Both the position numbers and the translations under genes were made by a program. Shown in pieces: positions 56,507-62,136 of a stretch of DNA of 64,000 nucleotides. Source of the DNA: Planctomycetota bacterium (GTDB taxonomy: Bacteria > Planctomycetota > Phycisphaerae > Phycisphaerales > SM1A02); assembly GCA_003671025.1 (NCBI GenBank), contig QWPW01000010.1, positions 19,052-83,051 of the forward strand, read 5' to 3'. Each line of letters begins with the position of its first letter. Positions within the stretch are counted from its first letter, which is position 1. The notes under the pieces are model-generated. The model searched no databases. It was not told the DNA's origin and saw only the letters and a program-made list of their open reading frames with translations.

Positions 56507-56664
56507 ACGCGTCTGCTTAGCCATCGGTGCGAGGGTGCGATTGCGCGCGAACGCCTAGTTTTCTAGCGCTTTCGACGACTATCGTCGCTCATCGCGGTGG
56601 CTCGTGGTTCGGTCGGTGCACTCGACGCGAGAGCGTCTCGCGACACGCGCCACACCAGATAAAC

Positions 56665-61205: not shown

Positions 61206-61316
61206 TGGTGATAGCGCAGGTGATGGATCGTGAAGACGATGAATGTGAAGGGGTGGACAAGCAGCGCCAATTGGGCGATACTCCGAAATCAATTCACCGG
61301 AAACGGTGAGACATCT

Positions 61317-61404
61317 GGAGAGGTGTCCGAGTGGTTGAAGGACCTAGTCTCGAAAACTAGTAGTGGGTTTATCCTGCTCGTGGGTTCGAATCCCACCCTC
61401 TCCG
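61317..61404 (+). tRNA. tRNA-Ser (anticodon CGA)
   Basis: Acceptor GGAGAGG/CCTCTCC, D arm GTCC..GGAC, anticodon stem CTAGT-CTCGAAA-ACTAG, long variable arm, T arm GTGGG-TTCGAAT-CCCAC, discriminator G; CCA not encoded. Confidence 0.95.
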
Positions 61405-61470
61405 TTAACAACCGCGCCGTGGTCGCCCTTATCAGGTCGAGCACGGCGCGGTTGTTTACGGAGAGGGTGG
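61393..61470. repeat. 29-bp near-perfect inverted repeat overlapping the tRNA-Ser 3' end
   Basis: ccaccctctccgttaacaaccgcgccgtg (61393-61421) vs reverse complement of 61442-61470: 28/29 identical, 20-nt spacer. Confidence 0.97.
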
Positions 61471-61588
61471 CGCTTGGCGCGCGCGAGCTCGACGCGATGT
61501 GCACGCGTGTCGCGGGCGCGCGCCAATCGCAGCAGCCGCAGCGCGGGACATTTGTCGTGTGCACGTTTGTCGTGCCAGCGCTGCGTCT

Positions 61589-61752
61589 GCGGATTGCGGA
61601 CTTCCAGCGGGGGATGTGGCGTGCGATGGCGTTTGAGGTTGACCGCTGGAAGTTCGAATCTTCCCGCGTGGGTTGGCTCGGGTGGAGATTGCGTTTGACG
61701 TGGAGTTGGGTGGGGGGCGCGGCGCTGCGCGCGCGGATTGCCGACTTCCAGC
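61589..61752. repeat. Direct repeat pair GCGGATTGCSGACTTCCAGC
   Basis: 61589-61608 and 61733-61752, 19/20 identical, in non-coding sequence. Confidence 0.85.
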
Positions 61753-62136
61753 AGTGGTAGCGTCGTGCGCGCTCGTGCCGATGTACACGCTTGGCTTGGG
61801 CGCGCAGACTGCCTGTCTTGTGTTGGTTGTCCAGGGAGCGTTCCCGGCGAGCATCCTCGCCGCGTTGTGTGTCCACGATCGTCGGGTAAGTTCACGAGGC
61901 AGACGACGGGGAGCAGCGCTGGGTCGCGGCGCGACAGTTAAGACTGCTTGAACTCACCGCTCAGGAGCCAATGCTCACCTTCGGCAACGACAAACGACAA
62001 AAACCGTCGCGATTTCGCGCAGCAGCTGGTCTGTATTGGCTATTCCCTGATGGCAGCGCAAGATGGACCTCCGGCGATTGGATAGCGCTCCACAACAACG
62101 GCAATGACCTGGAACTCAACACAAAGGGAGTGAAGA

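Follow-up and report, generated by a model that had tools for sequence, protein, structure and literature searches.

The window, a stretch of 64,000 nucleotides of planctomycete DNA, carries on its forward strand a tRNA-Ser(CGA) gene at 61317–61404 (88 nt, without an encoded CCA; Rfam RF00005, 55.6 bits; placed at 61316–61405 by ARAGORN), the 3' end of which forms part of a long inverted repeat. The two arms (61393–61421 and 61442–61470) match at 28 of 29 positions, a match that is not expected at all in shuffled sequence, and their inward extension gives arms of 37 nt with 92% match around a 4-nt loop. The tRNA part of the left arm (61393–61404) consists of four of the five T-stem 3' bases, the acceptor 3' strand CCTCTCC and the discriminator G, and is followed by 17 nt of trailer (61405–61421); the anatomy given in the initial annotation, with its 29-bp arms, is thereby confirmed. 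Among all inverted repeats in the window this one ranks highest, with an ungapped score of 28 against 15 for the runner-up and no more than 13 in 20 shuffled windows, and folding of 61316–61480 yields a z-score of −8.7.

The palindrome can be divided into an inner hairpin (61407–61457, forward strand), which ends in a weak U-tract, TTGTTT (61452–61457), and an outer right arm, ACGGAGAGGGTGG (61458–61470). The latter is the reverse complement of the tRNA 3' end and of a single base of the trailer; beginning in the T-stem, of whose 3' strand it complements the greater part, the pairing covers the acceptor 3' strand, the discriminator and the first base beyond it. This complementarity spans 13 nt, compared with at most 9 nt in shuffled trailers. 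A derivation of the arm from the tRNA 5' end was rejected, as the match is to the complement of the 3' end and includes T-stem and trailer bases. Rfam matches of the hairpin to microRNA families fell below the gathering scores and were judged to be due to chance. Directly 3' of the right arm lies a second GC-rich, imperfect inverted repeat (61470–61530, forward strand; 27-nt arms, 78% match). Farther downstream, 61578–61625 and 61722–61769 form a direct repeat of 48 nt with 79% identity, and a T-arm-like hairpin, GGAAGTTCGAATCTTCC, is found between its copies near 61648–61664. The tRNA-Ser(CGA) palindrome is real, exceeds what chance would produce and, as described below, is not unique.

The inner hairpin is GC-rich and immediately follows the tRNA gene, as in an intrinsic terminator, and we infer that it terminates transcription of tRNA-Ser(CGA), possibly in both directions. 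A hairpin is found at the equivalent position 3' of tRNA-Ser(CGA) in relatives from the same genus, where the stem sequences differ wholesale and still pair, a pattern that fits an intrinsic terminator. The U-tract is less persuasive: TTGTTT is interrupted, whereas relatives have TTTTT or TTTT, and the hairpin was not listed by a terminator scan. The suggestion of a terminator in the initial annotation is upheld for the inner hairpin by its position and pairing. A second suggestion, that the hairpin would compete with acceptor-stem folding, applies in part. In predicted folds of RNA running from the tRNA start to any end point up to 61463, all seven acceptor pairs are kept and the hairpin forms separately; with the end at 61466 the long hairpin is favoured by 7.8 kcal/mol and at 61470 by 16.6 kcal/mol. 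On these in silico folds, loss of the acceptor stem would be confined to read-through RNA, shorter transcripts adopting a normal cloverleaf plus hairpin. Since competition is predicted only in RNA that extends past ∼61463, the outer arm would act on read-through RNA alone.

Within the genus, a right arm pairing with 7–12 nt of the tRNA is present at seven of 12 loci, counting that of the window; among these tRNA-Ser arms that of G005 is the weakest and that of G010 is degenerate. No comparable arm occurs in G003 or in relatives with the T-stem sequence CTCACC; that several close relatives do without the arm speaks against its being essential. Next to the discriminator this locus has T, with A opposite it in the right arm, where relatives have C and G, indicating a coordinated change on the two sides of the stem.

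As the initial annotation had recommended, the other tRNA genes of the genome were examined, on fetched loci, for the same arrangement, and two further cases emerged. Of the 44 distinct tRNA genes, three, Ser(CGA), Tyr(GTA) and Pro(GGG), are followed by palindromes that take in 8 nt or more of the tRNA, with scores of 28, 27 and 24; the remaining genes score 10 or less, like shuffled trailers. When scoring is limited to the tRNA part, Ser is the only one to rise above its null (13 versus 9). The Tyr and Pro hairpins extend 8–10 nt into the tRNA, and both open tandem trailer repeats. These long palindromes are features of the genome of the window (G000), most relatives in the genus having little or nothing of the kind and G004 a partial version at Pro. 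Each Pro unit, of ∼180 bp, opens at the T-loop with the 3' end of the tRNA, which is followed by the same hairpin and then by an inverted arm. The array is seen at 1575–1952 of L020 (G000:C35) and at 56550–56631 of G000:C15, with further copies at contig ends; it runs off these ends and is probably what interrupts the assembly. At tRNA-Tyr(GTA) (L195; G000:C14:1–800) a trailer segment is repeated ∼240 bp downstream and ends with the contig. The T-arm, acceptor and hairpin of tRNA-Gly(GCC) (L004) are directly duplicated 61 nt downstream, with 25 of 25 tRNA nucleotides retained.

Tandem or duplicated units were thus observed at Pro, Tyr and Gly in G000, at Ser in G006, where an array with a period of 246 bp makes up the trailer of tRNA-Ser(CGA), and at Cys in G004. 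In the last case (tRNA-Cys GCA; L263) a hairpin is followed by an inverted T-arm/acceptor copy and then by a direct T-arm/acceptor copy with the same hairpin again. Direct copies of the 3' end, starting in the T-loop, lie downstream of Ser in G006 and of Pro in G000. A search of the window for a direct downstream copy of the tRNA-Ser(CGA) 3' end gave a best match of 9 nt, which is not significant against a null of up to 10. A dispersed repeat of the REP or MITE type was also considered and rejected: the apex pattern GGTCGCC-NNN-GGCGAGC was searched for in the genome and the genus, and the matches examined outside tRNA-Ser and tRNA-Tyr trailers looked like unrelated sequences without the hairpin. 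Within the genome the pattern occurs once, at tRNA-Tyr, and the right-arm region gave no strong match elsewhere.

A scan of GTDB species genomes with a gapped pattern returned 79 stretches, and 32 of these contain a tRNA-Ser gene that continues into an ungapped, short-looped palindrome scoring 14 or more, a count that is not a frequency because the genomes concerned were selected by the pattern. These tRNA-Ser versions are near-perfect, 20–36 bp long and mostly proteobacterial; the carriers include Dyella, Rhodanobacter and other Lysobacterales, Pseudoduganella, Hydrogenophilales, Chromatiales, Woeseiaceae, Alcanivorax and one member of the Polyangiaceae. A shorter exact pattern was found in 32 of 98 genomes of the family Rhodanobacteraceae and in none with the reversed control, the tRNA context having been verified for the fetched loci only. 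In the order to which the window belongs, the exact palindrome pattern is present in three of 301 genomes, its own and two others (G210 and G177), neither of which has it at a recognized tRNA-Ser gene. In Dyella sp. SG609 three of the four tRNA-Ser genes (CGA, GCT and TGA) are followed by perfect 33-bp palindromes, the right arms follow each gene's own 3' sequence and none of the 45 other tRNAs has such a palindrome. Loci of Dyella and Rhodanobacter (L080–L156) also share a conserved, hairpin-rich segment of ∼130 nt after the right arm, GGTTCGACAAATTCG...ACAATCCCACC.

Covariation of the arms, another check proposed in the initial annotation, is evident in the Proteobacteria. Across 14 aligned palindromes both sides have changed in 18 of 33 pairs, a value reached in none of 500 shuffles, although the 14 sequences are related and the shuffle count is accordingly not a probability. 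In the tRNA region of matched arms all 496 of 496 pairs are Watson–Crick, with no G–U; a few G–U pairs occur in the trailer stem. In the Proteobacteria the upstream pairing is longer and takes in the CCA and the trailer.

Several known systems invite comparison. The rtT repeats that follow Escherichia coli tyrT and tyrV carry, as direct copies, 19 nt of the tRNA 3' end with their start in the T-loop, and RtT RNAs are described as being released from tRNA operon transcripts and as linked to the stringent response (PMC4986893). A weaker form of the arrangement recurs here: in the K-12 tyrT–tyrV region (L313) the rtT units also contain, in inverted orientation, the T-arm together with part of the acceptor, GGGGAAGGGTGAGAACCTTCG, matching at 18 of 21 positions at +56 and +59, with nothing as good in 2000 shuffles. 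Taking this inverted copy as a mark of rtT (RttR)-like trailers, a criterion that we propose here from E. coli tyrT, the window trailer resembles them in its 13-nt inverted T-arm/acceptor copy (null at most 9), and the Ser array of G006 and the Pro array of G000 do so also in their direct copies starting in the T-loop. The window locus differs in lacking direct copies, while the E. coli arm comprises only the T-stem and part of the acceptor, without a perfect terminator stem in between. An Rfam search of the window gave no RtT match, and a profile of the proteobacterial tRNA-Ser elements showed no significant match to E. coli tyrT rtT or to the planctomycete units, which limits the claim to a shared layout.

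Another counterpart is Rfam RF02223 (sX4), reported as a trans-acting proteobacterial sRNA rather than a tRNA trailer (PMC6337395). Its consensus includes a tRNA-Ser sequence whose 3' end is paired, as here, with an arm farther downstream, and matches above the gathering score coincide with tRNA-Ser(CGA) plus palindrome at two loci (L115, 5546–5713; L086, 6041–6201). The window itself scores 42.8 bits, under the gathering score of 70. The locus also resembles the intrinsic bidirectional terminators of tRNA genes in that the hairpin directly follows the tRNA and is flanked, in the relatives, by A-rich sequence on the left and T-rich sequence on the right, but the stem here does not stop at the U-tract and takes in part of the tRNA itself. 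A literature search for terminator palindromes overlapping a tRNA found none. Finally, template switching has been described as creating and maintaining hairpins, mainly in rRNA and microRNA genes (PMC8794818); perfect reverse-complement arms and multi-base compensatory changes around a hairpin are common to those cases and to ours, which is distinguished by one arm lying in a functional tRNA that acts as a fixed template.

We therefore favour, with a probability of around 60%, an origin in which template switching has lengthened a terminator stem on its outer side, the tRNA serving as the constrained template, in trailers related to rtT-type repeats. DNA synthesis would fold back at the inner hairpin and copy the flanking 3' end of the tRNA in inverted orientation. 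Because selection holds the tRNA side constant, copying would proceed from the tRNA to the right arm and keep the arm matched to its own tRNA. Terminated transcripts would lack the outer arm and, in the folding calculations, would form the tRNA normally; the long hairpin would lock up read-through RNA only, and the outer arm itself would have no function. The reverse-complement identity around a hairpin and the multi-base coordinated change agree with such an origin, and the hairpin-centred, near-perfect Watson–Crick arms, their sporadic occurrence and the tailoring of the Dyella arms to each gene count in favour of template switching. The relationship to rtT draws on the tandem or duplicated units in trailers of the genus and the inverted T-arm in E. 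coli rtT, and the window locus looks like a single-arm member of a wider rtT-type pattern of direct and inverted 3'-end copies around a hairpin. Counting against the proposal are the persistence of the arm across the Rhodanobacteraceae, in many of which it is found, and the tendency of its outer end to coincide with the T-stem boundary, which need not result from neutral copying, as well as the weak U-tract and the missing direct 3'-end copy at the window locus.

The main rival is that the arm is a selected safeguard or folding switch, in which the outer right arm of a read-through transcript invades the acceptor stem, RNase III or decay enzymes destroy the resulting hairpin and only terminated precursors mature. 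The predicted preference of RNA ending at 61466 or 61470 for the hairpin, the match of arms to each gene's own 3' end, their recurrence in distant phyla and their usual end near the T-stem boundary are all in keeping with this, as is the excess of G–U over A–C departures in clean proteobacterial palindromes, although most of these lie in the terminator part. The absence of the arm from several close relatives, from most other tRNAs and from one Dyella tRNA-Ser leads us to consider the safeguard unlikely. Its generalization, that tailored inverted arms after tRNA genes, chiefly tRNA-Ser, constitute a recurrent, selected device destroying unterminated precursors by acceptor displacement, we hold to be less probable than the local version. 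Doubtful in still greater degree is a remnant of an rtT-type array, in which the right arm belongs, as 5' strand, to a structured RNA farther downstream that the next direct 3'-end copy closes, and the upstream palindrome is a by-product. The order of arm and then direct copy from the T-loop start, able to pair, at G006 Ser, G000 Pro and E. coli tyrT would suit a remnant, as would the termination of Dyella-type loci in AATCCCACC; the window retains no such downstream copy above the null, and the proteobacterial pairing is longer on the upstream side, where it includes CCA and trailer.

The 3' ends of tRNA genes are standard integration sites, and the initial annotation had raised the possibility that an element using the tRNA-Ser 3' end left an inverted duplication behind. 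Direct 3'-end copies in the Pro, Gly and Cys trailers of the genus would be compatible with such a scar. Integration yields direct copies, not inverted ones, however; no integrase family was recognized among the seven neighbouring ORFs tested, the locus has no significant direct copy and the same hairpin-centred arrangement recurs in many genera, so that this origin now appears very improbable. Least probable of all is a function at the DNA level, through extrusion as a cruciform or recognition by a recombinase or transposase, which would agree with near-perfect palindromes, short loops and Watson–Crick rather than wobble pairing in the arms, but not with the lack of dispersed copies of the apex pattern and of the right-arm region in the genome.

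The arrangement connects intrinsic terminators that follow tRNA genes with Rfam sX4 and with the rtT repeats found at E. coli tyrT, three things that are usually treated separately and that all have inverted copies of a tRNA 3' end. Matches to sX4 should, it suggests, be checked as tRNA-Ser plus trailer before a regulatory RNA is called, as genomic sX4 calls may be tRNA-Ser genes. The pairing of a fixed tRNA template with a free right arm offers a natural test bed for the making and keeping of bacterial hairpins by template switching and, should the arms prove to be functional, they would represent a novel form of quality control in tRNA transcription.
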